From positions 62,001 to 126,000 of the forward strand of contig SBGP01000103.1 in the NCBI GenBank assembly GCA_006226595.1: a stretch of 64,000 nucleotides of DNA, in the 5' to 3' direction. Origin of the DNA: Deltaproteobacteria bacterium. GTDB lineage: Bacteria; Myxococcota_A; UBA796; GCA-2862545. Below are positions 47,367 to 62,074 of the stretch, one piece after another. Numbering within the stretch: the stretch's first letter is position 1; every line of letters starts with the position of its first letter. The notes under the pieces were generated by a model. That model was given only the letters and a program-made list of their open reading frames with translations. It made no database searches and was not told the origin of the DNA. A program made the translations under genes and the position numbers.

Positions 47367-47981
47367 TCAGGCGAGAAGGCCCTTGAGCGAGAACTCGAGG
47401 ATACCGAGGGCGAGGCGGTGCGTGTCGACCTTGTCGTCGCCGCCGAGGTACTCCTCGACGACGGCACGAAACGCGCCGAGCACGCATACCGCCGCGAGCT
47501 GCGGGTCGCACTCGCGGATCAGGCCGAGCATCTGGCCTCGCCGCAGGCTCATTGCGATGAACGCGCGAAGGTTGCCGTAGAACTCGGACAGCTTGGCATC
47601 GACTTCCTCGTCGAGGCCCACCGCCACGCGGAGCACGATGCGCACGAACTGTCGCTGCTGGTCCACCGCGTCGAGGATACCGGTCACGGTGGTCACCAGC
47701 TGCTGGCGTACCGGCGCGGCGCCCTCGGACACGTCCACGCCGACGATGCTGTCGCGGAGGTTCTCGATCAGCTGGTCGAGCAGCTCGTGGAAGATGGCCT
47801 GCTTGCTGTCGAAGTACTGGTAGAAGGTGCCGCGGGCGACGCCAGCCGCTTTGACCACGTCGGTGATCGACGCGTCGTGGAAGCCCTTCTCGCTGAACAC
47901 GTCGAGGGCGACGTCGAGGATCTGTTGGCGGCGGGCTTCCCGTGCTTCGCGGGCGCGTTCCGCGCGTGCGGACTCAGGCAC
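47367..47981 (-). CDS. TetR-family transcriptional regulator, coupled to plsC
   Basis: A 204-residue TetR protein with helix-turn-helix ITDVVKAAGVARGTFYQYF and a helical effector domain (about 70-200). It starts with a GTG preceded by AAGGAGG and overlaps the plsC stop by eight bases, so it is translated with the lipid genes. This makes it the best candidate for an autoregulated repressor of the two operons with the shared palindrome. The effector may be an acyl-CoA or acyl-ACP, as for many TetR regulators of lipid genes; this is inference. Confidence 0.85.
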   Translation of the reverse strand: MPESARAERAREAREARRQQILDVALDVFSEKGFHDASITDVVKAAGVARGTFYQYFDSKQAIFHELLDQLIENLRDSIVGVDVSEGAAPVRQQLVTTVTGILDAVDQQRQFVRIVLRVAVGLDEEVDAKLSEFYGNLRAFIAMSLRRGQMLGLIRECDPQLAAVCVLGAFRAVVEEYLGGDDKVDTHRLALGILEFSLKGLLA

Positions 47982-48756
47982 GTCGACCTCCTTCGATGCC
48001 TTGCCAGTAGGCGTCCACCTTGTCGGCCACGACCCGCTGGACCTGCTCGGTGAGCGCAGGAACGTCCTCGGGCGTCAGGTCGGCGGTCTCGATGGGCTTC
48101 TCGCAGTTCACGGTCACCACACCGCCGGGGAGGAGCAGCTTGCTGCCCTTGCGCTGCTTCTCGTACATGCCGGTCACCGCCACCGGAATGATCGGGAGCT
48201 GAAGGGCTTGAGCGATGTAGAAGATGCCCTTGCGGAAGGTGCCGACCCGGCCGGTCGTCGTGCGCGTCCCCTCGGGGAACGCGAGGATGCTGTGGCCCTT
48301 GTCGAGCTCGGCACGAAAGCCGTCGAGGATCTCCTCGGTCTGCCCCTGGGAGCCCTTGCGTACGGGAATCGTGCCGCGGGACTTCATGAACCAGCCGTAG
48401 ACCGGGATCTTGAAGTGGTCCTCGAGCTCCACGCCCTGCTTGAAGTGCGGGGTCGCCGCGTACAGCACGACATGGTCGAACACGTTCACGTGGTTCTGGG
48501 CGAACAGATACGGGCGGTTCGGGTCGATGTCCGGGTGAACCACCGTCTCGTAGCGCGCGCCGGTGAGCGCGATCTGACCGCGGGTGTACAGCCGCGAGAA
48601 GCGGTCGATGCGGTCGGGCCCCAACACCGCGTGTCCGAGCATCATCGTGCTCATCATCGGTGTCATCCACGCCAGGCCGACGCCCCACATGCCGACGGAC
48701 ACGGCCTTGTCGACGAGGGTGGGCTCGGGCAGCTCGACGGACTCGCGCTCGTTCAT
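47974..48756 (-). CDS. plsC: 1-acyl-sn-glycerol-3-phosphate acyltransferase (PlsC-like)
   Basis: A 260-residue membrane-associated acyltransferase with a hydrophobic segment near the N-terminus, the catalytic NHVNVFDH (H-x4-D) motif (about 89), the FPEGTRTTTG motif that binds the phosphate (about 161) and IPVAVTGMYE. It would acylate lysophosphatidate or a related ether/alcohol-derived lipid. Its ATG overlaps the stop of the lipid-kinase gene. Confidence 0.85.
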   Translation of the reverse strand: MNERESVELPEPTLVDKAVSVGMWGVGLAWMTPMMSTMMLGHAVLGPDRIDRFSRLYTRGQIALTGARYETVVHPDIDPNRPYLFAQNHVNVFDHVVLYAATPHFKQGVELEDHFKIPVYGWFMKSRGTIPVRKGSQGQTEEILDGFRAELDKGHSILAFPEGTRTTTGRVGTFRKGIFYIAQALQLPIIPVAVTGMYEKQRKGSKLLLPGGVVTVNCEKPIETADLTPEDVPALTEQVQRVVADKVDAYWQGIEGGRRA

Positions 48757-49628
48757 GCCAACAGCTCCAGTGCGCCGGGCTCCACGACCAGGCGCTCGAG
48801 CGCCAGGGTCAGCACCTCGCCGTCGATCATGCACGCGGCCGGCTCGGCGAGGTCGAAGCGGACCTCGCGGGCGCGGTGGTGCTCGATCTCGGGCATGTGC
48901 ACGTGGGTGCCCTGGAAGATCTTTGGGAAGGCGGCGAGGAATCGACGTCGACCCAGCGGGCCGATGTGAATCACGTCGAGCTCGCCGTCGGTCGGGTCGG
49001 CGCCGGGCGCCATCTGCATCGTGCCGCCGGTGTACTGCGAGTTCGAGAACGACAGCAGTGTGCAGTCACGCTCGTCGAGCTCTCCGTCGTCGAGGCGGTA
49101 CGGGAAGCGGGGCCACTGCAGGCGCACCAGGCATTGCAGCGTCGCGAGCACGTAGCCGAGCGCGCCGAAGGCCTTGTAGCGCTCGTTGGTCACGTGGCCG
49201 GCGTCGGCGGTGAATCCGAGCGAGAGCAGGTTCACGTAGTGCAGCGCGCCCTCGGCATGCTCGATGCGCACGAGATCGATGCTGCGGGTCTTGCCGCGCG
49301 CCAGGGCGGCGTAGGCATCGTCGGTACACGTGATCGCGAAGTCGCGGAGGAAGGAGTTGCCGGTGCCGAGCGGCAGGATGCCGAGCTTGGGCCGGTCCTC
49401 GCGGGTAGCGAGCCCGTTGATGACCTCGAAGGTGGTGCCATCCCCGCCGGCGGCGATGACGAGCTCCGTCGTCGCCTCTCGTGCGAGTCGGGTCGCATCG
49501 CCGGGGCCGGCGGTCTGGACCAGGGTCACGTCGAAGCCGAGGGCCTGCAGCCGAGCGACGGCGCTCTTGGCCTGCTTTCCGGCACGCCCGCCGCCGGCAG
49601 CGGGATTGAGCACGAGAGTCGCGTTCAT
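48753..49628 (-). CDS. Diacylglycerol kinase-like lipid kinase (YegS/LCB5 family)
   Basis: A 291-residue kinase with the nucleotide-binding motifs LNPAAGGGRAGKQ (about 7), VIAAGGDGTTFEVINGL (about 57) and LGILPLGTGNSFLRD (about 82). These define the DAGKc fold found in diacylglycerol, sphingosine and undecaprenol-type lipid kinases. Next to plsC it suggests phosphorylation of a glycerolipid intermediate. ATGA overlaps on both sides. Confidence 0.85.
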   Translation of the reverse strand: MNATLVLNPAAGGGRAGKQAKSAVARLQALGFDVTLVQTAGPGDATRLAREATTELVIAAGGDGTTFEVINGLATREDRPKLGILPLGTGNSFLRDFAITCTDDAYAALARGKTRSIDLVRIEHAEGALHYVNLLSLGFTADAGHVTNERYKAFGALGYVLATLQCLVRLQWPRFPYRLDDGELDERDCTLLSFSNSQYTGGTMQMAPGADPTDGELDVIHIGPLGRRRFLAAFPKIFQGTHVHMPEIEHHRAREVRFDLAEPAACMIDGEVLTLALERLVVEPGALELLA

Positions 49629-51367
49629 GAGGCACTCCCGAGGAGCGTGCGCAGGTCCTCGCGCGCCGCGCCGTCCCGGATCGCGTCGGCGAGCTTGGGC
49701 CGCTTGACCTTCATCGAGGCGGTGCGCGGAAACTCCGCCTCCCACACGAGGACCGCGTCGATGCGCTTGTGCTCGGGCAGCTTGTGGTTCGCGCGGGCCA
49801 GGGGCGCGTGGAAGTCGTCCTCGCCGGGGCGGACGACCGCGACGAGCTGCTCGCCGACCATCGTGCGTGCCGGCCACAGGTAGTTCGCGGCGAACACGAC
49901 CAGCTCTTCGCAGGGCACATCCACAAACGCGCTCTCGATGTCCTCGGGGTACACGTTCTTGCCGCCCGCGGTGACGATCATGTTCTTGCGCCGGCCGACC
50001 AGGTGCAGGTGCCCGCTTGCGTCGAGGCGGCCGAGGTCTCCGGTACGAAGCCACTCGCCGTCGAACGCGGCCTCGGTCTGCTCGGGGTCGTCGAGGTAGC
50101 CGTTCATCACGGTGGGACCAGAGACGTACACCTCACCGATGCCGTCCGGTCCGGGCTCGTGGATGCGCACCTCCGTGCACGCGACGACCTTGCCCACGCT
50201 GTCGGCGCGGAACGGCGCGAGGTCATGGACGGCGACGACGGTGCACGCCTCGGTGAGGCCGTAGCCGATGACCACGGGGATGCCGTGGCGGTAGAAGAAC
50301 TCGGCGCGCTCCCGCTCGACGAAGGCACCGCCGCAGAACAGGAACTTCAGGCGTCCGCCGAAGCCGTCGTGGATGGGGGCGAGCAGGCGTCGCGACAGCT
50401 CGGTGCGGGGGCGGACCTCGGTGAGTGCGGCGTTCACGCTTGCGAGGCCGTCGACGGCGCGGCGCTTCCACGTGGGCAGCTCGTCGAGCTTCTCGCGAAG
50501 GCGTCGCTCGAAGGCCTCGAGGATCATCGGCACGATGGCCATGTGGGTGACCCGCTCGCGCTTCATGCTCCACACGAGGAACTCGGGACGCAGCGCGCGC
50601 TGATGCACGACGCGGGCGCCGCACACCCAGGGACCGAGGAAGCCGCAGGTGAAGTCGATGGCGTGGTTCGTCGGCAGGATCGAGAAGTACGCGTCGTCGG
50701 GGGCCATCGGGTACAGGTCGAGGAGCACGCCGAGCTGCGCGAGGTACGCACCGTGCGAGAGCATGCATCCCTTCGGATCGCCCCCCGTGCCGCTCGAGTA
50801 CACGATGGTCGCGACGTCTTCGGCGGTGCGTGGGTGCGGAGCGTCGGTGTTCGGCGCGTGCTCGAGGGCCTCGACGAAGCGCGCGTGTCCCTCGGGAAGC
50901 GCCGTGCGCTTCGGGGCCTCCGAGACCAGGGCGGCCGGTGGAGCCGTGAGGTGCCGATAGAAGGCGTACTCGGCGATGACCAGCTTGGCGCCGCTGTGGG
51001 CGAGCAGGGCATCGTGCTCGGGGCCGGTGAGCTTGTAGTCCAGAGGAACGAGCACCGCGCCGCGCGCGAACACGGCGGTCGCCGCGAGCAGCCACCGCGG
51101 CTGGTTGCTCATCACGATGGCGACGCGGTCGTCGGGGCCGATGCCCTGGGCCTCGAGCCAGCCGGTGAGGTGCTGCACCGCGCGGCGAACCTCGAGGAAG
51201 CTCCAGCGCGACGCCTCGCGTTTGCGTGACAGCTCGACCAGCGCGGTCCGCGACTTGTGCATCACCAGGGCGTCGTGGAGCATCTCGCCGAGGCAGGCAT
51301 AGGTGCGCGGATCCAGCGGCGCGAAGCCGCGGGGCCGGGGAACGCTCGCGCGGACCTGCTGGTTCAC
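49625..51367 (-). CDS. AMP-forming acyl-CoA/acyl-ACP ligase
   Basis: A 580-residue adenylate-forming enzyme. The ATP loop is VYSSGTGGDPKGCMLSH (T of the usual SSGTTG changed to G), with core motifs VVIGYGLTEA and WLRTGDLGRLD. A hinge and catalytic C-terminal lobe follow (GRRKNMIVTAGGKNVYPEDIE), with the catalytic Lys expected in RTASMKVKRP. It activates a fatty acid and loads it on CoA or on the adjacent acyl carrier protein, with which it overlaps (GTGA). Confidence 0.88.
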   Translation of the reverse strand: MNQQVRASVPRPRGFAPLDPRTYACLGEMLHDALVMHKSRTALVELSRKREASRWSFLEVRRAVQHLTGWLEAQGIGPDDRVAIVMSNQPRWLLAATAVFARGAVLVPLDYKLTGPEHDALLAHSGAKLVIAEYAFYRHLTAPPAALVSEAPKRTALPEGHARFVEALEHAPNTDAPHPRTAEDVATIVYSSGTGGDPKGCMLSHGAYLAQLGVLLDLYPMAPDDAYFSILPTNHAIDFTCGFLGPWVCGARVVHQRALRPEFLVWSMKRERVTHMAIVPMILEAFERRLREKLDELPTWKRRAVDGLASVNAALTEVRPRTELSRRLLAPIHDGFGGRLKFLFCGGAFVERERAEFFYRHGIPVVIGYGLTEACTVVAVHDLAPFRADSVGKVVACTEVRIHEPGPDGIGEVYVSGPTVMNGYLDDPEQTEAAFDGEWLRTGDLGRLDASGHLHLVGRRKNMIVTAGGKNVYPEDIESAFVDVPCEELVVFAANYLWPARTMVGEQLVAVVRPGEDDFHAPLARANHKLPEHKRIDAVLVWEAEFPRTASMKVKRPKLADAIRDGAAREDLRTLLGSAS

Positions 51368-51631: not shown

Positions 51632-52522
51632 TCACGGCAGGTAGGGACGCACGTCGGTGCGGGCGACGAAATCGGTGAGGGCCGCTTCGACGCGGTCCTC
51701 GGTCACCATGCGCAGGAACTGACGCTTCTCGGCATCGAGGCGCTGGCGCGGCACGTGCTTGAGGAAGGCCTTTGCCTGGGCGACGACCTCGGCATCGAAG
51801 CGGGCGGCCTGGGCGGCGACGCGACGCGCGCTGTCGAGGCCCTTGTCCCGCGACACGACCTGGGCGACGAGGCCGAGCTCGGCGGCGCGACGCGCACCGA
51901 GCGAGCGCCCGGTGAGCAACAGGTCGCGCGTCATCGCGTTCCCGAGCTCGCGCTCGAGCCGGGGGATGCCACCAAAGCCGGGAATGATGCCCAGCCGCAG
52001 CTCGGGGAAGCAGAAGCGCGCGCTCTTCTCGGCGACGATGAGGTCCGCGGTCAGCGCGAGCTCGAAGCCCCCTCCGAACACCGGGCCGTGGACGACGGCG
52101 ATGGTGAGCAGGGGTGCGCGGTCCAGGGCGTCGAACACCGCGTGGATGCGGTCGATGAACTGGCTGATCTCGCGACGCACGAGGTGCTTGCCCACGCGGC
52201 GGGCGGCGCGGGTCGCGAGTCCGCGAACCGGGGAGGGGAGTCGCTCGGCGACCGCGGAGACTTGGGCCTTGCGACGGTCGGTGCGCTCGGTGATGCCGGC
52301 CTGCAGCTCGCGGAGGTCCGCGCCGGCGCAGAAGCCGCTCGCCAGGGTCGAGTGGAGGATGAGCGCCCGTGCGCCGCCGGCCCCATCTTCGAGGTAGCGG
52401 ACCAGGCCCTCGAGCTCGCGGAGCATGACGGTCCCGATCTCGTTGGTCGGCCCACGGTGCAGGGCGACCTCGAGGGCATCCCCGCGATGGGTCCAGGAAA
52501 GGGCTTCGCCAGCGAGCTCCAA
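51632..52522 (-). CDS. Enoyl-CoA hydratase/isomerase (crotonase) family protein
   Basis: A 296-residue crotonase. The oxyanion-hole motif SGFCAGADLREL, the GGGFELALTADL helix with its Glu and the second glutamate in CFPELRLGIIPGFGG are all present, so hydratase activity is possible. It has a longer helical insertion (about 80-120) than typical. The start is a TTG with GGAGG five bases upstream. It opens the second lipid operon, with the 22-base palindrome 30 bases before the start. Confidence 0.85.
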   Translation of the reverse strand: MELAGEALSWTHRGDALEVALHRGPTNEIGTVMLRELEGLVRYLEDGAGGARALILHSTLASGFCAGADLRELQAGITERTDRRKAQVSAVAERLPSPVRGLATRAARRVGKHLVRREISQFIDRIHAVFDALDRAPLLTIAVVHGPVFGGGFELALTADLIVAEKSARFCFPELRLGIIPGFGGIPRLERELGNAMTRDLLLTGRSLGARRAAELGLVAQVVSRDKGLDSARRVAAQAARFDAEVVAQAKAFLKHVPRQRLDAEKRQFLRMVTEDRVEAALTDFVARTDVRPYLP

Positions 52523-52551: not shown

Positions 52552-52573
52552 CTAGACTGACATGTCAGTCTAG
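52552..52573. promoter_or_regulatory. 22-base perfect palindrome, TetR-type operator of the crotonase-plsC operon
   Basis: Half-site CTAGACTGACA is followed at once by its reverse complement. The inner 20 bases are identical to the palindrome at 60743-60762. On the minus strand CTGACA inside it can act as a -35 box with a TA-containing hexamer 17 bases downstream, so a bound dimer would block RNA polymerase. It ends 30 bases before the crotonase start codon. Confidence 0.8.
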
Positions 52574-53316: not shown

Positions 53317-54384
53317 TCACCAGCCTCGCACAGGCGCCCACTGGCCGACGACCTCGTCGCCGCGCACGCCGTAGATGACCGGGTGCAGCGCGGCCACCAG
53401 GCAGCTGTGGTTGGGCAGCACGCGCACCTTCTCGAGGCCGGGCACGTAGCCCTTCGCGAGCCCGTGCTCCTGCGACAGGCCGTGCAGCGCGATTGGCAGC
53501 TCCTCGCCGTCGAGATCGAAGACGCGGCCGTAGCCCTCGCCGTGCCCCGGGTCCTTGGACAGGGCCAGCGCGCCGCAGTCGAGCACCATGCGGCCCATGT
53601 GCTGGCCGATGACCGAGGCGACCACGGACAGCGCGATGTCCTCGACCGCACACACGCCCAACCCCAGCTGGTGGAGGTCGAAGAACACGTAGTTGCCAGG
53701 CCGGATCTCGGTGACGCCGGTGAGGTCGTCGATCACGGAGCAGGTCGGCGTGCTCCCGACACTGACGTGGCGGAACCCCAGCCCGGCGTGGTCGGCGCGC
53801 GCCGCGAAGTCGACGACCGCATCGCGCTCCTGGCGTGCGATGGCGAGCAGGCCTTCGGGGTCGTCCTTGCAGCCGTAGCTGTGGCCGGCATGGGTGAGCA
53901 CGCCTCGCACGTCGAGGTGGTCGGCTTCCATCAGGGTCCGCAGCAGGTCCATGGACGCGGGGTCGGTCGGGTCGACGCCGGCGCGGTGATAGCCGCAGTC
54001 GATCTTGAGCCACACCCGCATCGGTCGGCGCGCCTCGACGAGCCGGGCTGCGGTCGCTGGAGTGTCGACGAGCACGCCGAGGTCGATGCGCTCGGCGAGC
54101 TCCGCGGCCTCCGCGAGCCGGGACGGCGGCAGGGGAAGGGCCCAGGTGATGTCGGTGAAGCCGTGCTTCGCGAAGTGGTGGGCCTCGGCGAGCGTGGACA
54201 CCGTGATGCCCTTGAATGGACCTGGGGTCTGCAGTCGGGCGACGTGGGGGATCTTGTGGGTCTTCACGTGCGGGCGGAGCCTGACGCCGAGCGCATCGGC
54301 CTTCGCGGCCATGGCCTCGGCGTTCCGCTCGACCACATCGAGGTCCATGACCGCACAGGGCGTGGGCAGGTCGTGGATGCGCAT
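53317..54384 (-). CDS. D-serine dehydratase/D-threonine aldolase-like PLP enzyme (alanine racemase fold)
   Basis: A 355-residue enzyme of the alanine-racemase-fold group. The PLP lysine lies in LRPHVKTHK (about 41), the phosphate-binding and barrel strands follow (GVLTHAGHSYG, VSVGSTPTCSV), and a His-x-Cys metal site typical of the DSD1/DTA group is seen in VLPNHSCLVA. Members cleave or dehydrate D-hydroxy amino acids using PLP and a divalent metal. The start overlaps the amidohydrolase stop, so the two act together in some way not evident here. Confidence 0.78.
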   Translation of the reverse strand: MRIHDLPTPCAVMDLDVVERNAEAMAAKADALGVRLRPHVKTHKIPHVARLQTPGPFKGITVSTLAEAHHFAKHGFTDITWALPLPPSRLAEAAELAERIDLGVLVDTPATAARLVEARRPMRVWLKIDCGYHRAGVDPTDPASMDLLRTLMEADHLDVRGVLTHAGHSYGCKDDPEGLLAIARQERDAVVDFAARADHAGLGFRHVSVGSTPTCSVIDDLTGVTEIRPGNYVFFDLHQLGLGVCAVEDIALSVVASVIGQHMGRMVLDCGALALSKDPGHGEGYGRVFDLDGEELPIALHGLSQEHGLAKGYVPGLEKVRVLPNHSCLVAALHPVIYGVRGDEVVGQWAPVRGW

Positions 54385-55793
54385 CAGTCCTCCGTGCCCA
54401 GGCGCTGCATCCAGCCGTCGGGCGTGTCCACGGTACCCGCTCGCACGACCAGGGATGCATCCCAGATCGCGCTGAGGTCCTCGGTGATGTCGGCGGGCAG
54501 CACGACCAGATCGGCGCGCATGCCGGGCGCGATGCGCCCGACCTCCGCCTCGATGCCGAGCATGCGGGCGGGCGTCCACGTGGCGGCGGTGAGCGCTTCG
54601 GTCGGGCTCATGCCGGCACCGCCGAGCAGCTCGAGCTCGCGCAGCGTCGTCGGGCCGTGGAACTCGGTGAGGAACACGGGCCAGTTGCCCGAGTCGCTGC
54701 CGAGCACGATCGGCACGCCGGCGGCGTGCTGCTTCGCGACGCTGTTCTGCATGCGCCGGACGCGCCCGCGTGTGAGCCCGGGCTTGTCGAGCAGGCCGCG
54801 CACGGTCTTCGCGAAGAAGCCATGGCGGTCGGGCAGCATGCTCGCCACCACGACGTCCTTCGACTCGGCCTGGTACCCGGGGTCGTTGGCAGTGACGAGC
54901 TCCTTGTCGGGGACGGCGCGCTGGAACGCCGCGCGCTGCAGCCGCTCGGGTTCGTGCTCGATGAGCAGCGCGTCGAACACGGACAGGGTGCTCACCACCC
55001 ACACCTGCTGATCCGCGAGTGCTCGGATCAGGCGCCGCTTCGGGTTCTGCGTCGGGTGGACGAAGCCGGTGACCCCGAGGTCGAGGCCACGCCAGTATTC
55101 GTCCGCGCTCATCGCATGCGCGTATACGCCCTGGTCGCGTTTGGCGGCCTCGGCGAACACGGCGTCGGCGACCTCGTCGGTGTACAGCGGCCACACCTTG
55201 ACGAGCATGCCCTCCTCGATGGTCGCCTTCACCCCGAAGGTGTCGAGCCCGTCGAAGGCCGCGAACTGCTCGGCTACGTCCTCGGCGTCGTGCGCGGGGG
55301 GAAAGCGGTCGGGGAGGACCACGCTGACGTAGCCACCCGGCGGCGAGACGAGCGGCCCGAGCAGGTGCACGTCGGGCGCCGGTCCCTCGGCCTCCAGCCG
55401 CCGCAGTCGGTGAGCGTCTTCGACGGGAATGCCTGTGTCGAGCACGGTGGTCACGCCACACGCCACGTAGGCCGCGAGGTGGTGCCGCATCGCCTCGTCC
55501 GGGTCTTCGGAGCGGAAGTACTCGCCCGGCGACAGCCCGAGGTGCACGTGCAGGTCCATGAGCCCGGGGATCACGGTCGCCCCAGCGAGGTTGCGCACCT
55601 TGTGGGGCGGGATGTCCGCGGGCAGCGCGCCCACGTGGGTGATGGTGTCCCCGTCGATGACGAGGGCCTCGACCTCGCGCTTGCCGTCGACGGCGTCCCA
55701 CACGGTCACGTGGGTGAACGCCGTGCGCGAGTCGACCGGAATCGCGAGCGGCGCCTCATCCTGGGCGAAGGCAAGGGACAGGAGCAGCAGCAC
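54384..55793 (-). CDS. Exported amidohydrolase-superfamily enzyme
   Basis: A 469-residue metal-dependent hydrolase with a signal peptide (about 1-10, LLLLSLAFA), so it probably works in the periplasm. The metal motif LMDLHVHLG (His-x-His), further ligands in VYAHAMSADE and TGFVHPTQ, and the Asp in IVLGSDSGNWP are in the order seen in imidazolonepropionase- and prolidase-like members. The substrate is unknown; cyclic amides and dipeptides are common in the group. It starts with GTG. Confidence 0.75.
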   Translation of the reverse strand: MLLLLSLAFAQDEAPLAIPVDSRTAFTHVTVWDAVDGKREVEALVIDGDTITHVGALPADIPPHKVRNLAGATVIPGLMDLHVHLGLSPGEYFRSEDPDEAMRHHLAAYVACGVTTVLDTGIPVEDAHRLRRLEAEGPAPDVHLLGPLVSPPGGYVSVVLPDRFPPAHDAEDVAEQFAAFDGLDTFGVKATIEEGMLVKVWPLYTDEVADAVFAEAAKRDQGVYAHAMSADEYWRGLDLGVTGFVHPTQNPKRRLIRALADQQVWVVSTLSVFDALLIEHEPERLQRAAFQRAVPDKELVTANDPGYQAESKDVVVASMLPDRHGFFAKTVRGLLDKPGLTRGRVRRMQNSVAKQHAAGVPIVLGSDSGNWPVFLTEFHGPTTLRELELLGGAGMSPTEALTAATWTPARMLGIEAEVGRIAPGMRADLVVLPADITEDLSAIWDASLVVRAGTVDTPDGWMQRLGTED

Positions 55794-55864: not shown

Positions 55865-57361
55865 TCAGGCGGCGTGGTCGGCGCGAACCCTCGCGACGCC
55901 GGCGGCCAGCTCGGGATGAAGCGGCGGCAGGTGGTCCCAGGGGTCGCCATCCGAGCCGAGACCTTTTCGGAACGGGAAGGTCGGGTGGTAGGCGCGCACC
56001 TGGTCGACGAGCAGCTGGCCCATCTTGCCCATGCGCTCGAGGTTGCGGACCACGCTGTCGAGGATGCCGTCTCGCACGGCCTCTTCGTGTGCATCCACCC
56101 AGTTCAGCACGTCGTACAGCGCTTGATCGAGGTCCGGGTCGTCCACCCGCAGGGCGAGCTCGGGGTGTCCGCGGTCGGCCATGAGGTTCGGGATGCGCTC
56201 GTCCATGGTGATGCCGATGGACGGGACCAGCGCGGGCATCGAGGTCACCGCGGCGTGGTAGCGGCTGGTGACCACGCGATCGGCGCGGCGGAGGAGGCCG
56301 ACGAGGGTGGTGTGCACGTGCTCGTCGCTGCACCACACCGGCACGCCGCCGAGGATCTCGGACAGCGGCTCGGCGGCGACCCGGTCGAGCGCCTCCATGC
56401 CGACGATGGCGACGAACGCGTCCTGCTCCTGGGCGTAGCGGCGCACCGCGGCGCCGAAGCGCTCGAGGTACGCGGCCTGCTTGGCCTCGACCTCGTCACC
56501 GCCCTTGTGGAAGTACACCGACGCGTAGTGCGTGTCCGCGTGGCTGCCGGTCAGCCAGTGGCTCACGCCCTTGGCCACGTCTGGCTTCACCGGCCACCAG
56601 AAGGCGTGGATCGGGCAGCAGATCACGAGCTTACGACCGTCGTAGCCCGCTTCTTCGAGCAGGCGGTCTGCCTCGGGAGACGGGCCCGGGTCGTAGGTCC
56701 AGGCGGTGTCGGTGCCGATGACGGCGGGCACGCCGAGCTCGCCGAGCACCTTCTTGCTGTTGTCGTTGCGCACGAGCATCAGCGACTCGCGGGCGTAGCG
56801 CCGCACGAGGTCCTGCAGCGCCGGGTCCATCTGACCGGCCTCGCCGCCGTACGCGACCGAGAGCTTGCCCTCGGCGTTCGCGAGCCCGAGCGCGCCGGTC
56901 ATCATCGTCGACAGCGCATTCGCGAACTTCGACTTGAACATCGAGCCTTCGCACGCGAGCACGCCATGGTGCTCGTGCACGGTCTCGACGAGGAACTTCG
57001 GGAAGATCTTCGGGAGCACGAGCTGGCGGACGGTACGGAAGTACCCGCGGGTCCGCTCGGGATCGATGGTGAGGATGGACAGCTCGAGCCAGTCGTCTCC
57101 GAAGAGGAAGCGCAGCTGCTTGATCATCTCCTCGACGCGCACGTCGGCCCCGGTGTTGCGGGTGCCCGAGTAGCCAGCGAGCAGCAGCTTGAGCGGCTCA
57201 CCCTCGCGCCAGACCGCACCTCGATCGAGGGCGGAGCGCGTGGCGGCGAACTCGATGCCTGCGGCCATGGAGCCGATCAGCGCACGGTCGGCATCGACGG
57301 CGGCGCTCAGGCCGTCGCTGACCTTGTCGCGGAGGCGCTCTCCGAGCTCGCGCCAGTTCAC
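55865..57361 (-). CDS. Polysaccharide pyruvyl transferase-family protein
   Basis: A 498-residue protein with the pyruvyl-transferase (CsaB-like) fold: an opening AGYSGTRNTGADVRVEEMI, a central GGEAGQMD segment, VRNDNSKKVLGELGV, and the C-terminal VVTSRYHAAVTSMPALVPSIGI that in CsaB contributes the active-site His and Ser. It would add a pyruvyl ketal to a surface glycan, but divergence leaves the substrate open. The GTG start overlaps the preceding reductase stop (GTGA). Confidence 0.7.
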   Translation of the reverse strand: MNWRELGERLRDKVSDGLSAAVDADRALIGSMAAGIEFAATRSALDRGAVWREGEPLKLLLAGYSGTRNTGADVRVEEMIKQLRFLFGDDWLELSILTIDPERTRGYFRTVRQLVLPKIFPKFLVETVHEHHGVLACEGSMFKSKFANALSTMMTGALGLANAEGKLSVAYGGEAGQMDPALQDLVRRYARESLMLVRNDNSKKVLGELGVPAVIGTDTAWTYDPGPSPEADRLLEEAGYDGRKLVICCPIHAFWWPVKPDVAKGVSHWLTGSHADTHYASVYFHKGGDEVEAKQAAYLERFGAAVRRYAQEQDAFVAIVGMEALDRVAAEPLSEILGGVPVWCSDEHVHTTLVGLLRRADRVVTSRYHAAVTSMPALVPSIGITMDERIPNLMADRGHPELALRVDDPDLDQALYDVLNWVDAHEEAVRDGILDSVVRNLERMGKMGQLLVDQVRAYHPTFPFRKGLGSDGDPWDHLPPLHPELAAGVARVRADHAA

Positions 57362-58491
57362 GCGGCCTCCGAGAAGCCCGCCGGAAGCGGCACGTAGGGG
57401 TACTTGAACCCCCGCTCCTTGACCCAGGCGATGTGCGCGCCGCCGTAGTCGACGAAGTGCGCGGGCTGGGCGGCACTCGCGGCGACGGCGCGCTGGTTGT
57501 CGTGGGTCACGTTGCTCACGATGTACGGCCAGAACACCTTGAGCAGCACACTGGCGCCCTGGAGCGGGTTGCCTCGCGGAAGGCGGCTTCCCGCGCGGGA
57601 GGCGGCGAAGAAGCCCTGCTGCAGGTGGGGGGCGAAGCGCAGCTTGCGGAAGCCGTGCTCCGCGAGGGCCTCGCCGATCTCGCGCGTCGTGGGCGACGCC
57701 TTGCCGGCCGAGAGGAAGTAGATCACGTGCTTCGGGGACGGATCGAGGTGGATGGCGGCCATGGCCTTGCCCACCCAGTCGGCGTTGACGACGTCGAACT
57801 GGATGTCGGGAGACATCGGCACGACCGGCAGGTTCGCCAACCACACGAAGGCCGAGGGCATCTCGAAGCTGGTCGTCCGCGGGTGGCGGGAGTCGCCGAC
57901 GACGGTCGCCGGCCGGAAGATGACGCGCGACACGTCGGCGGGAAGCAGGCGCTGAACCATCTCCTCGCAGACGCGCTTGGTCTCGGAGTAGGGGTCGAGG
58001 GCGTTCACGCCGAAGTCCAGGCTGTCGTCCTCTTGCAGGTGCTCGTCCTTGCGGTCACCGACCACGGCGGCGGTGGACACAAAGGTGTAGCGCCTCAGTC
58101 GGCCGCGCTCGTGCAGGGCCCTGGCGAGCTCGAGGGTCGAGATGGTGCCGCGCACGTTGCTGTTCACGCACACGCGGCTCGACATGCGGTTGAGCGAGGC
58201 GGCCCCGTGAAAGATGCGGGTGCACTCGGACAGCACGCGCTCGCGGTCGGCGGGAGCGAGCCCCAGCTCGGGCGCGTGGAGGTCGCCGCCAACGAGCACC
58301 ACGCGGTCGAGTACCGCGCGGAAGCGCTCGGCATCGATGTGCAGCTGCAGGCAGTTCCACAGCTTCTCGACCCGGTGGGCATGGTCGCGTCCGCGCACGA
58401 GCAGGAACACGGTCTCGTCGGAGCGGTCGAGGTGCTCGAGCAGCGTGTAGCCGCCGAGGTAGCCGGTGCCGCCGGTCATGAACGTCGCCAT
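57358..58491 (-). CDS. Extended SDR, thioester-reductase/male-sterility-like domain protein
   Basis: A 377-residue NAD(P)-dependent enzyme with Rossmann motif TGGTGYLGGYTLL, the FVSTAAVVGD segment and the active-site DPYSETKR (Y-x3-K). The organisation is that of NAD_binding_4 thioester reductases, which reduce acyl thioesters to aldehydes or act on fatty acyl substrates. It follows the alcohol-forming reductase gene with a one-base overlap (TGATG), so the two may be sequential enzymes or a heteromer. Confidence 0.78.
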   Translation of the reverse strand: MATFMTGGTGYLGGYTLLEHLDRSDETVFLLVRGRDHAHRVEKLWNCLQLHIDAERFRAVLDRVVLVGGDLHAPELGLAPADRERVLSECTRIFHGAASLNRMSSRVCVNSNVRGTISTLELARALHERGRLRRYTFVSTAAVVGDRKDEHLQEDDSLDFGVNALDPYSETKRVCEEMVQRLLPADVSRVIFRPATVVGDSRHPRTTSFEMPSAFVWLANLPVVPMSPDIQFDVVNADWVGKAMAAIHLDPSPKHVIYFLSAGKASPTTREIGEALAEHGFRKLRFAPHLQQGFFAASRAGSRLPRGNPLQGASVLLKVFWPYIVSNVTHDNQRAVAASAAQPAHFVDYGGAHIAWVKERGFKYPYVPLPAGFSEAA

Positions 58492-60068
58492 CAGGCCGTC
58501 CTCGACAGGGTGTGGGTAGGCGCGCCGAGGACCACGGCAGGGGTGTGCGGCGGGTCATCGGGCACGGTACCGCCGCTGATCAGCGGGAAGCACCACTTCT
58601 TGAGCCCGGGGTACTCGACGTCGATCCAGTACGCGCGCCAGTCGAGGTCGGCGATGTCGAAGGCGAAGGCTGCGTGCTCCTCTTCGGGCAGCGCCTCGGT
58701 GAGGAGCAGGGCGTGGTCGCTCAAGAACACCCAGTCGTGGTCGTGCGTGAACGGCTGGAACAGCTCGAGCAGCGCGTCGATACGGCGCAGCTGTCGCGAC
58801 GTGTCGGCGAGACGCGTGCTCATGCGCGAACGCAGGTCGTCGAGCAGGGGGCCGAGCATCTCGCGGGCCGGCTCGCTCCACTCGTCCTCGGGACGGGCGC
58901 TCCGGATGCGCTTCTTGAGCCAGTCCGCGGCGTTGCGGGCGCGACCCACCGTGAACAGGGCCTTGTCGTCGACGGGCGCGGGCACGGGGTCGAGGTGGCG
59001 CAGCCACGCGTCCTTGCCGCCCTTGCGGGTGTCCTTGCGCACCGCGAGGCCATTGAGCTCGATGCACCGGCCAAAGCTCATCGGGTTGATGCCGCTCGAT
59101 CCGAGCTGGTACAGCTTCTCGGCTCGGCCCTGAATCAGCGCGGCGCCGACCAGGGACAGGCCCCGTCCGATGAGGTCGACGGGCACGACGTCGAAGTGGT
59201 GGTGCTCGACGGAGGGCAGGCTGCGGAAGGGGCTCGCGATCAGCCAGGACACGGGGCCAGCGGTGTTGATGCCCTCGTTCCAGCCGGGGAAGGGGAAGCG
59301 CCACGCGCACTCGACGACCGAGGGGCGCACGATGGCGAACTCGAGGTCGGCCCGGTGCTGGAGCAGGCGCTCGGCGAGGCTCTTCGTGTAGGTGTAGATG
59401 TTGGGAAAGCCCAGGGCCTCGGCGCGTTCCTTTCCGATGTCGATGCGCGCCCGGGCGCGCTTGGCGGCGTTGCCTTCGCTGCATGCCGCGCGCAGGGCCT
59501 CGACCTCGGCCTTGGGGTCGAGGGGCGAGCCGTTGGGGGCCATCGCGCCGGGCAGGATCTCGGGGATGGTGCCGTCCACGCGACCGGCGACGAAGCAGGT
59601 CGACACGTGCACGAGGCGCGGGCTGTCGAAGCTCGCGACCACGGAGGCGAGCTCGAGCGTGGCGTCCACGTTCGCGCGCAGGGCGGCCATGGGGTCGGGC
59701 ATGAAGTCGGTGAGCCCGGCGCTGTGCACGGTCAGGTCGACGCTGTGCCGCAGGAAGTCGAGCTCCTCGGGATCGATGCCGCACCCGGGCTCGGAGAGCT
59801 CGGCGCGCACGACCGCGATGCGCTCGGCGGCGAACCGACCCCAGTCCTTGCCGTGCCGCTCGCGGAGGGGCCGGAACGCGGGGCTGCTGCCGAGGATGTC
59901 GGCGATGCGCTCCGCGGCGGAGATCTTGCCCTTGTCCCGGACGAGCAGGGTCACGCGACCGATGCGCGGCACGTGCCACAGGACCTGGGCCAGCCAGACC
60001 TTGGCAAGGAAGCCGGTCGCGCCGGTGAGCAGCACGTGCTTGCCAGAGAGGGTGTCGACGACGCTCAT
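58491..60068 (-). CDS. Alcohol-forming fatty acyl-CoA reductase (FAR)
   Basis: A 525-residue reductase of the FAR family. The N-terminal Rossmann motif is LLTGATGFLAKVWLAQVL, a VHVSTCFVAG strand follows, and the catalytic YTYTKSLAE gives Y-x3-K. The C-terminal part (about 370-480) is the sterile-domain region of FARs, which helps pass the aldehyde on to alcohol. It would reduce acyl-CoA or acyl-ACP to a fatty alcohol. ATGA coupling to the HAD-like gene upstream. Confidence 0.82.
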   Translation of the reverse strand: MSVVDTLSGKHVLLTGATGFLAKVWLAQVLWHVPRIGRVTLLVRDKGKISAAERIADILGSSPAFRPLRERHGKDWGRFAAERIAVVRAELSEPGCGIDPEELDFLRHSVDLTVHSAGLTDFMPDPMAALRANVDATLELASVVASFDSPRLVHVSTCFVAGRVDGTIPEILPGAMAPNGSPLDPKAEVEALRAACSEGNAAKRARARIDIGKERAEALGFPNIYTYTKSLAERLLQHRADLEFAIVRPSVVECAWRFPFPGWNEGINTAGPVSWLIASPFRSLPSVEHHHFDVVPVDLIGRGLSLVGAALIQGRAEKLYQLGSSGINPMSFGRCIELNGLAVRKDTRKGGKDAWLRHLDPVPAPVDDKALFTVGRARNAADWLKKRIRSARPEDEWSEPAREMLGPLLDDLRSRMSTRLADTSRQLRRIDALLELFQPFTHDHDWVFLSDHALLLTEALPEEEHAAFAFDIADLDWRAYWIDVEYPGLKKWCFPLISGGTVPDDPPHTPAVVLGAPTHTLSRTA

Positions 60069-60712
60069 CGCGCCTCCACGATGGGCCAGTCGAGCTCGCG
60101 GGCGACGCGGCGCAGGCCCCGGTCAGGGTGCGCGGCGCAAGGAAGTCCGACCTGAGCGAGCAGCAGCTTGTCAGCCTCGGCGGAACCGTAGGCGGCGCTG
60201 GTGTCGAGGTCCACGTCGTGCTCGCGGGCCCACTGCTTGAGCATGCCGCCGACGTTCTCGCCGACCACAGGGTCCAGCAGCCGCCCGGTCGCGCGTCCGT
60301 CGCGGTACTCGAGGCGGTTGCACAGCAGCTCGGCGCCGAGCTGATCGGCGAGGGGCTGCATGACTTCGGCGAGGTTGTCCGAGATGAGCACGACGCGGTC
60401 GTGACGCTTGCGGGCCTGCGCGACGAGCTCGACTCCGGCCTCGCGGAGCTTGCCGTCGAAGTGCGCCTCGAACAGCTCTTCACCGAGCACGGTGATGCGG
60501 TCCTCGGTCTGGCCGCGGAGTGCAGCCCAGCCGAGCTTCATCGCGTCGGTTCGGCCACCCGAGATCGCAAAGGGCAGGGCGAGGGCGGCGGCGCCGAGTC
60601 GCGTGAAGCGCTCGCGCACGAGCTGGGCGTTCGCCGCGAGCCAGGCGGCGGAGGCGAGGGTGGGGCGGCCGGTGAGCACCCCCTCCACGCGCACGAAGGC
60701 TGCAGACTCCAT
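60065..60712 (-). CDS. HAD-IB-like protein lacking the catalytic aspartates
   Basis: A 215-residue protein of SerB/HAD-IB architecture. In motif I, where DxDGT is expected, the residues are R-V-E-G-V (FVRVEGVLTG), so the nucleophile Asp is Arg and the acid/base Asp is Glu. Motif II (VVLISDNLAE) is present. Motif IV reads AYGSAEADKLLL instead of AYGDSxxD, losing a metal ligand. The downstream PCAAHPDRGLRRVA still follows the family. It is likely a binding or structural partner of the reductase rather than a phosphatase. It is first in the reductase operon, 31 bases after the palindrome. Confidence 0.75.
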   Translation of the reverse strand: MESAAFVRVEGVLTGRPTLASAAWLAANAQLVRERFTRLGAAALALPFAISGGRTDAMKLGWAALRGQTEDRITVLGEELFEAHFDGKLREAGVELVAQARKRHDRVVLISDNLAEVMQPLADQLGAELLCNRLEYRDGRATGRLLDPVVGENVGGMLKQWAREHDVDLDTSAAYGSAEADKLLLAQVGLPCAAHPDRGLRRVARELDWPIVEAR

Positions 60713-60742: not shown

Positions 60743-60762
60743 TAGACTGACATGTCAGTCTA
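60743..60762. promoter_or_regulatory. 20-base palindrome, TetR-type operator of the HAD-FAR operon
   Basis: Half-site TAGACTGACA followed by its reverse complement, identical to the inner 20 bases of the palindrome at 52552-52573. It lies 31 bases before the start codon of the HAD-like gene, the same spacing as at the other operon. On the minus strand CTGACA is followed 17 bases later by TACACC, a plausible promoter overlapped by the site. Confidence 0.8.
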
Positions 60763-60842: not shown

Positions 60843-61943
60843 CTAGGCGTCGCGGAAGGCGATGAACTTCGCGCCGGCGAAGTTCACGGCGGTGCCGGCG
60901 ACGATGCCGAGGAAGGTGGCCACGAGGTAGTGCGTCTCGAAGAAGCCCACGTTCTCGTACATCCAGATGGATAGGCCCGCTCGGACTGCGCCGCCGGCGA
61001 CACACGCGGCGAGGAAGGTCGCGTAGCGCGCGCCCATGCCCATCTTGCGAGGAGCGTCGCTCGCGAAGGTCACCGCGTCGTTGAGGAAGAAGTTGAACGT
61101 CGCGGCGGCGAGGAACGCGGGCAGCTGTGCCCAGCCGAAGTACACGCCGCCGAGCTCGACGAGCAGCGTGAGCACGGTGAAGTCGACGAGCATGCCCGCG
61201 CCGCCGACCGCGCAGAACTCGGCGAGCTGCGTGAACAGCGGCCACTTCCAGCGGTAGAGGCGCTCGAGGTGCGTGATGTACCGCAGTTGTTCCTTGAGCG
61301 TCAGCTTCGACTCGCCGTGCAGGCGGTCGGTGAACGTGATCGGGATCTCGCGGGGATCCGTCACACCCATCTTCACGATCACCTCGAGAGCGATCTTGTA
61401 GCCGATGGGGTTGAGCTCCTCGAAGGGCACGTTGGAGCGACGCACGCAGAAGAAGCCGCTCATCGGGTCCGCGACGCGAGTCAGCGGCCGTGCGAGCAGG
61501 GTGGCGCCGACGGAGTTCACCAGGCGGAGGCCGCCCCAGTCCACCATCTCGCCACCGGGCACGTAGCGGGAGCCGAGGGCGAAGGGCGCGCCGTTCTCGA
61601 CGGCATCGACGAGCTCCGGCACCTTCTCGGGCGGGTGGGAGAGGTCGGCGTCGATGCACACGCAGATGTCGTAGCGCGCTTCCTGCATGCCGCGGATCAC
61701 CGCGGTGGACAGGCCGCGCTCCTCGGTGCGGCAGATGCTGCGGATCGGTCGGGAGCCGTCCTCGCCGAGCTCGGCCGCATAGGCGGCGGTGCCGTCCGGG
61801 GAGTTGTCGTCGACGACCAGCATGTCGAGCGGGCGGTTCGCCGACGCGAACGCCTTCTCGAGGCGTTCGAGGAGCACGGGAATGTTGTCGCGCTCGTTGT
61901 AGGTCGGAACGACCACCGTGACGCCCGCGCGCTCCTCCGCCAT
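60843..61943 (-). CDS. DPM1-like glycosyltransferase fused to GtrA membrane domain
   Basis: A 366-residue fusion. Residues 1-235 are a family 2 polyprenyl-phosphate glycosyltransferase: VVPTYNERDNIPVLLERL, VVDDNSPDGTA and the catalytic CIDADLSHPPE. Residues about 240-366 are a GtrA domain of four transmembrane helices (GGAGMLVDF, FFLNDAVTF). Such proteins make and help translocate a polyprenyl-phosphate sugar for surface glycans. The ATG at 61943 begins the conserved domain; an earlier in-frame GTG is possible. Confidence 0.85.
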   Translation of the reverse strand: MAEERAGVTVVVPTYNERDNIPVLLERLEKAFASANRPLDMLVVDDNSPDGTAAYAAELGEDGSRPIRSICRTEERGLSTAVIRGMQEARYDICVCIDADLSHPPEKVPELVDAVENGAPFALGSRYVPGGEMVDWGGLRLVNSVGATLLARPLTRVADPMSGFFCVRRSNVPFEELNPIGYKIALEVIVKMGVTDPREIPITFTDRLHGESKLTLKEQLRYITHLERLYRWKWPLFTQLAEFCAVGGAGMLVDFTVLTLLVELGGVYFGWAQLPAFLAAATFNFFLNDAVTFASDAPRKMGMGARYATFLAACVAGGAVRAGLSIWMYENVGFFETHYLVATFLGIVAGTAVNFAGAKFIAFRDA

Positions 61944-62074
61944 GTCCACTCCCCGGTCCAGCGGGGGCCGATAACCGGTTGTGTGGCAGATGTAAGGAGC
62001 GGACGTCGATTCCCGTTGCCCATCCGGAACCGGGTGGGCCCGAGGGCGTCGCATCGGTCGTCAGGGAGGATTGC

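Follow-up and report, generated by a model that had tools for sequence, protein, structure and literature searches.

Organization of the locus

The window, meaning the whole stretch of 64,000 nucleotides that was analyzed, carries an operon on its minus strand (Table 1). The first gene, which starts with an ATG codon, encodes a protein with the fold of a HAD phosphatase and without its catalytic residues (the pseudo-HAD). The product of the second gene (P0002) matched the NAD_binding_4 (E = 1.4e-43) and Sterile (E = 3.2e-11) domains of fatty acyl reductases (FAR), in agreement with the name of FAR operon that had been given to this cluster in the original prediction. The fourth gene encodes a pyruvyl transferase (CsaB)-like protein (PSPT) with 46 to 82% identity across the phylum. 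An amidohydrolase gene (54384-55793) lies between this gene and the enoyl-CoA hydratase-like gene in this genus, at a place occupied in many relatives by a second AMP-ligase. Directly upstream of the operon, and on the same strand, is a gene for a GT2 glycosyltransferase-GtrA fusion (60843-62054), which is kept in a congener (L040).

Table 1. Features of the pseudo-HAD operon, with positions in the window
Feature	Position	Strand	Description	Basis
Pseudo-HAD	60065..60712	minus	HAD-IB fold without catalytic residues; 215 aa; first gene of operon	ORF, profiles, AlphaFold2, structure match
FAR	58491..60068	minus	Fatty acyl reductase (NAD_binding_4 + Sterile); 4-bp overlap with pseudo-HAD stop (60065-60068)	
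Second SDR	57358..58491	minus	NAD_binding_4 protein, thioester-reductase-like	Domain search
PSPT	55865..57361	minus	Polysaccharide pyruvyl transferase-like protein; operon marker; start codon inferred	
Enoyl-CoA hydratase/isomerase-like gene	51632..52522	minus		Domain search
Acyl-CoA ligase	49625..51367	minus	AMP-binding	Domain search
Diacylglycerol/lipid kinase	48753..49883	minus	DAGK_cat + YegS_C; start not fixed	
Acyltransferase	47974..48834	minus	PlsC type	Domain search
Regulator	47367..47981	minus	TetR family; last in operon; candidate palindrome binder	
Arg8 codon	60689..60691	minus	Place of nucleophile Asp (R 47, K 1 of 48)	Alignment columns
Glu10 codon	60683..60685	minus	Place of acid/base Asp (E 48 of 48)	Alignment columns
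Asp112 codon	60377..60379	minus	Acidic residue after motif II Ser (D/E 45/48; active relatives Gly 24/24)	Alignment columns
Val154 codon	60251..60253	minus	Place of motif III Lys of active relatives (24/24)	Alignment columns
Ser177 codon	60182..60184	minus	Place of Mg-binding motif IV Asp of active relatives (24/24)	Alignment columns
Palindrome	60743..60762	.	Perfect 20-bp palindrome TAGACTGACATGTCAGTCTA, 30 bp upstream of pseudo-HAD start; likely operator	
Palindrome, second copy	52553..52572	.	Exact copy of TAGACTGACATGTCAGTCTA, 30 bp upstream of enoyl-CoA hydratase-like gene	

Predicted fold and active site of the pseudo-HAD

The pseudo-HAD matched PF12710 (Pfam HAD; E = 6.3e-19, 69.6 bits, cut-off of 27) and, with 60.5 bits (E = 2.6e-16), TIGR01490 (HAD-IB), for which the curated cut-off of 98.3 was not reached. 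Remote sequence similarity to SerB and HAD-IB phosphatases (TIGR01488/TIGR01490) was also detected. An AlphaFold2 model, for which the window protein and seven orthologues were used as input, had a pLDDT of 84.6 and a pTM of 0.83. The top match of this model among PDB structures was 3fvv (VIA-align; Z of 22.1, 213 residues aligned, 2.7 Å), followed by phosphoserine phosphatases of the SerB type with Z values of about 16 to 20. The model, the 3fvv match and PF12710 place the protein in the HAD superfamily with a subclass IB fold, in which a cap is located between motifs I and II of a Rossmann-like core; the pLDDT and the 3fvv Z value bear out the earlier statement that the fold is otherwise kept.

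In phosphoserine phosphatase, Asp11 is the nucleophile and, together with Asp167 and the Asp13 backbone, binds Mg, and the substrate is positioned with the help of Ser99 and Lys144 (PMC6321591). By equivalence of motifs in an alignment with HAD relatives, Asp11, Asp13, Ser99, Lys144 and Asp167 correspond to R8, E10, S111, V154 and S177 of the pseudo-HAD. The earlier reading of the active site, with R-V-E in place of the DxD of motif I, a lost Asp in motif IV and a retained motif II Ser, was reproduced: motif I reads AAFV-R8-V-E10-G, S111 is the motif II Ser, and motif IV reads AYG-S177-A-E-A-D181, with the first Asp gone and the second (D181) present. Two further changes were detected, namely, the absence of the motif III Lys (V154) and the replacement by D112 of the Gly that follows the motif II Ser in active relatives. 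Catalysis of the HAD type appears to be lost because the nucleophile and a Mg ligand are missing, and the pseudo-HAD would be unable to dephosphorylate a substrate by this mechanism. Glu10 could in principle still function as an acid/base.

Conservation of the replacement residues

A search of 377 genomes of the phylum, taken to be Myxococcota in view of the elb-like operon, with an alignment of the window's family produced matches in 152 genomes at E ≤ 1e-32. All 47 genomes with a match of at least 198 bits had an R-x-E (n = 46) or K-x-E (n = 1) motif. These 47 and one more contig (L034) made up the set of 48 pseudo-HADs, the window protein included; motif I was inspected for some of the lower-scoring matches, among which there may be further pseudo-HADs. 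The boundary between pseudo and intact scores was narrow, with a lowest pseudo score of 198.5 bits and a highest intact score of 196.2. Pseudo-HADs were picked by motif alone, and L064 (AYFRLEG) was included. One contig with a pseudo-HAD operon (CAMCWU010000052.1, L036) is titled as a Klebsiella pneumoniae MAG and is probably mislabelled. The comparison set consisted of 24 intact HADs of the elb type (see below), picked by a DxD motif and a Lar_N neighbour. L060 and L072 were excluded (HAD cut at the contig end or contig too short to see the next gene), and L080, which has no HAD, is the second half of the G007 locus.

A distinct difference between the two sets was detected at the catalytic positions. 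Position 8 was R in 47 and K in 1 of the pseudo-HADs versus D in all 24 elb-type HADs, and position 10 was E in 48 versus D in 24. Position 111 was mostly S or T in the pseudo-HADs (S40, T2, A5, C1; S/T in 42 of 48) and was T or S in the elb-type HADs, while the adjoining position 112 was D29, E16, T2 and S1 versus G24. The Lys at position 154 and the Asp at position 177 were present in 0 of 48 pseudo-HADs and 24 of 24 elb-type HADs, and D181 was present in every member of both sets. A Lys was located two residues past the motif III column in 8 pseudo-HADs. Of 35 columns that were invariant in the 24 active relatives, columns 8, 10, 17, 57, 112, 154, 177 and 183 were kept in at most 2 of the 48 pseudo-HADs, columns 12, 54 and 178 in 14 to 17 and the remaining 24 in 33 or more.

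The retention of E10 and D181 in 48 of 48 sequences, and the shifted Lys in 8, would be compatible with a residual or altered phosphatase in which these residues, with the Lys or another metal ligand, sustain a weak activity; we regard this as very improbable, as none of the 48 sequences has the nucleophile or the first Asp of motif IV. The replacements are specific and fixed and not random, as would be expected if R-x-E and D/E112 constituted a new active site for non-HAD chemistry on a lipid intermediate. Such a new enzyme is improbable, if less so than a weak phosphatase: pocket positions 154, 177 and 178 vary freely, and we know of no HAD-fold enzyme with an Arg at the nucleophile place. 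The mechanism described for phosphoserine phosphatase, with its Asp11 nucleophile and Asp11/Asp167 Mg ligands (PMC6321591), also counts against it.

The 48 pseudo-HADs represent some twelve families of the phylum. Their median pairwise identity was 44%, and the window protein was 34 to 66% identical to the rest of its clade (clade A). For eight pairs, the dN/dS values were 0.06 to 0.32 for the pseudo-HAD and 0.12 to 0.49 for FAR, with the HAD value mostly at or below that of FAR; the second SDR was left out, as two reductases were possibly mixed by the search. A pseudo-HAD with FAR adjoining was present in 16 of the 21 genomes of the window's family. Four of the other five lacked both genes at the cut-offs used, and the fifth (G010) had an elb-type HAD/FAR pair only. 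Conservation of the R/E substitutions in orthologues beside FAR, for which an alignment had been proposed, was found in 48 of 48 sequences (one with K), and none of the 47 fetched loci had an orthologue with an intact DxD motif at this position, which in the original prediction would have been a sign of lineage-specific decay.

One genome with the PSPT marker (G088; L159:15848-16609) has a HAD-like ORF that has diverged strongly, as would be expected of a lineage-specific decay toward a pseudogene. Even this ORF, when examined by eye, reads L-R-L-E and overlaps the FAR start. Because all 48 sequences, from many families, share these residues, the reading frames are open and the dN/dS values are low, decay was rejected and is given next to no weight. 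These results indicated that the pseudo-HAD is a pseudoenzyme under selection, having lost its catalytic residues while fold and gene were kept, a conclusion that is well supported at the level of sequence.

Association with FAR and gene content of the operon

FAR was the next gene after the pseudo-HAD in all 47 fetched loci. In 46 of 47 loci, no more than 60 bp lay between the HAD stop and the earliest possible FAR start, which overlapped the stop in 25, and the FAR motifs look intact (TGxxGF in 45/47 and NxYTxxK in 44/47). Among loci that were long enough, the second reductase-like SDR was present downstream of FAR in 42/45 and the pyruvyl-transferase-like protein in 39/43, with the enoyl-CoA hydratase (31/37), the acyl-CoA ligase(s) (31/33), the lipid kinase (12/16) and PlsC (6/7) further downstream. 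The lipid kinase of these type A loci was present in 0 of 8 elb-type loci of sufficient length.

In the 377 genomes, the PSPT marker was detected in 49, the RxE HAD in 47 and both in 46. The marker was present without an adjoining FAR or HAD in G344 and G375, the contig of the latter beginning inside the marker gene. In G172, the pseudo-HAD was present and the contig stops within FAR. The diverged ORF of G088 has an odd, repetitive C-terminus.

As adjacency to FAR was constant and the two genes often overlapped, a partner of FAR is our best guess for the pseudo-HAD. The main rival, which we consider unlikely, is that the protein is a ligand sensor or substrate binder not acting via FAR, the Arg8/Glu10/Asp112 pocket of which would bind a phosphorylated lipid, CoA or an acyl carrier on behalf of the lipid kinase, PlsC or the ligases. 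The continued conservation of R8, E10, S111 and D181 and the presence of a kinase, an acyltransferase and ligases in the operon would suit such a sensor; these other genes, however, are farther off and less constant than FAR, and the two genomes with a marker and no FAR beside it, G344 and G375, also show no HAD.

Origin of the pseudo-HAD clade

In a tree of 80 rows, the pseudo-HADs formed one side of a branch with a support of 100/97, and the elb-type HADs did likewise (96/83). Support for the pseudo clade dropped to 91/67 when ten active-site columns and four long rows were removed, and in a quick tree of all rows without the active-site columns this clade was not one side of a branch. A single origin of the pseudo-HADs is likely. 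Since the operon in which the intact relatives lie is of another type, that of elb, the dead copy would represent an ancient clade of its own rather than a gene that decayed recently. One genome of the window's family (G013) had both types of operon, and in each of them the HAD was of the corresponding kind.

Two weak HAD matches were detected elsewhere in the window's own genome, one with 34% identity and a DLD motif (C107) and one that is SerB-like by its motifs (C69). There was no FAR in the fetched surroundings of C107, and the sole FAR match in this genome is that of the window. A second, active HAD copy was rejected as an explanation.

A palindrome shared with other genes

Two exact copies of TAGACTGACATGTCAGTCTA were found in the window versus 0 expected. 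The core, ACTGACNNGTCAGT, was present within 250 bp upstream of the pseudo-HAD gene in 34 of 47 loci. In 20 carrier genomes, the core occurred 0 to 5 times per genome; 18 had it, all with one site before the pseudo-HAD.

The window's own genome has four sites only (pattern with at most one mismatch), two of which are in the window. The other two precede PlsA/Ger-like genes, one (L170:4450-7914) for a protein of 1154 aa in which two BcrAD_BadFG domains and DUF2229 were detected and one (L171:6470-8065) for a 531-aa protein without a Pfam match. The site also precedes both of these genes in the congener G001 and the 1154-aa gene in G011 and G020; the domains were scanned in the window's own genome. 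A PDB sequence search with the 1154-aa protein produced activase matches, and one with the 531-aa protein produced none. The location of its gene and its Cys/Gly motifs, as judged by visual inspection, suggest that the 531-aa protein may be PlsR-like. A TetR-family gene (L171:2730-3593) is located near the 531-aa gene. At sites L195 to L198, no convincing operon gene adjoined the palindrome, L195 having a 25% ligase match and the other three nothing.

The TetR-family regulator at the end of the operon may bind the palindrome. The gene content and the shared palindrome suggested that the operon makes ether-type lipids.

Proposed role of the pseudo-HAD

The original prediction of a selected, non-enzymatic role was strongly supported by the R/E replacement in 48 of 48 sequences (one with K), by the purifying selection and by the constant position beside FAR. 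The more specific role suggested there, that of a scaffold or substrate binder for the reductase, would be compatible with this linkage. Very probably, this role is a job in making unusual ether-type membrane lipids. On balance, we think it probable that the protein is an old HAD-IB pseudophosphatase and that it partners FAR, without catalysing a reaction itself, in a so far uncharacterised pathway to ether lipids. Co-translated with FAR, it could stabilise, place or regulate the reductase on its lipid substrate. Arg8 would put a positive charge at the former Mg/nucleophile centre, balanced by Glu10 and Asp112, and therefore the old pocket may be either locked by a salt bridge or anion binding. 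R8, E10 and D181 are among the most conserved residues of the protein, as might be expected of a scaffold and equally of a protein that binds a ligand. An active lipid phosphatase would be futile beside the lipid kinase of the operon, and loss of the phosphatase would fit gain of the kinase; this is offered as an idea only. A more specific version is put forward tentatively, in which a stand-alone FAR requires the pseudo-HAD as a non-catalytic subunit, the Arg/Glu/Asp pocket holds a phosphorylated lipid or carrier, and the protein marks an undescribed ether-lipid pathway that is separate from elb and co-regulated with ester reductases of the PlsA/Ger type.

HAD phosphatases form one of the largest enzyme superfamilies, and pseudoenzymes as such are already known. 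Neither a bacterial HAD pseudophosphatase nor this family was described in the literature searched (open-access full texts). The pseudo-HAD points to an operon and a regulon of bacterial ether-lipid synthesis, the enzymes of which are still poorly understood.

Comparison with known systems

The pseudo-HAD has a fold in common with SerB and the HAD-IB phosphatases (TIGR01488/TIGR01490, 3fvv) and differs from them in the absence of the catalytic residues. A precedent for a pseudoenzyme in the HAD superfamily is fungal Tim50, a protein resembling HAD-type phosphatases in which the DxDx motif is imperfect; it has no phosphatase activity and functions as a protein-binding subunit (PMC8346121). Tim50 belongs, however, to another HAD subclass and acts in mitochondrial protein import.

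A second comparison is with PlsA/PlsR and the Ger ester reductases of anaerobic ether-lipid synthesis. PlsA-like ether-lipid enzymes are described as having one or two PF01869 activation domains, with two being linked to Ger (PMC13274423), and a plsA-plsR pair is known in Clostridium (PMC12838417). The genes with two BcrAD_BadFG domains and DUF2229 share the palindrome with the pseudo-HAD operon in the window's own genome and in three relatives; PlsA/PlsR and Ger are not homologous to the pseudo-HAD, and this putative operator is the only link between them.

The closest likeness in gene order is to the elb genes of Myxococcus xanthus, in which ElbB is a HAD-like protein encoded, as is the pseudo-HAD, upstream of a FAR-containing ether-lipid gene set. 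The published order is elbB (HAD), elbC, elbD (FAR-ACS-ACP-acyltransferase) and elbE; there, elbD and possibly elbE are needed for ether lipids, the effect of an elbB insertion is ascribed to polarity and ElbC is of unknown function (PMC9131029). The nearest intact-DxD HADs precede a Lar_N protein, a FAR/AMP-ligase/ACP/acyltransferase fusion and an epimerase (domains scanned in one locus, L057). This operon has the published elb layout, Lar_N and ElbC being matched by place and not by sequence. The Lar_N neighbour in 24 of 24 elb-type loci is due to the selection of this set. The elb-type HADs keep the DxD motif, the Lys and the first motif IV Asp (24/24), none of which is present in the pseudo-HAD clade, and the pseudo-HAD operon differs from the elb order in its stand-alone FAR and in the presence of a Lar_N gene in 0 of 45 loci long enough. 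The job of the dead HAD is directly testable, because active HADs of a known ether-lipid operon form the sister group of its clade, the replacement residues are fixed and one neighbour is constant.
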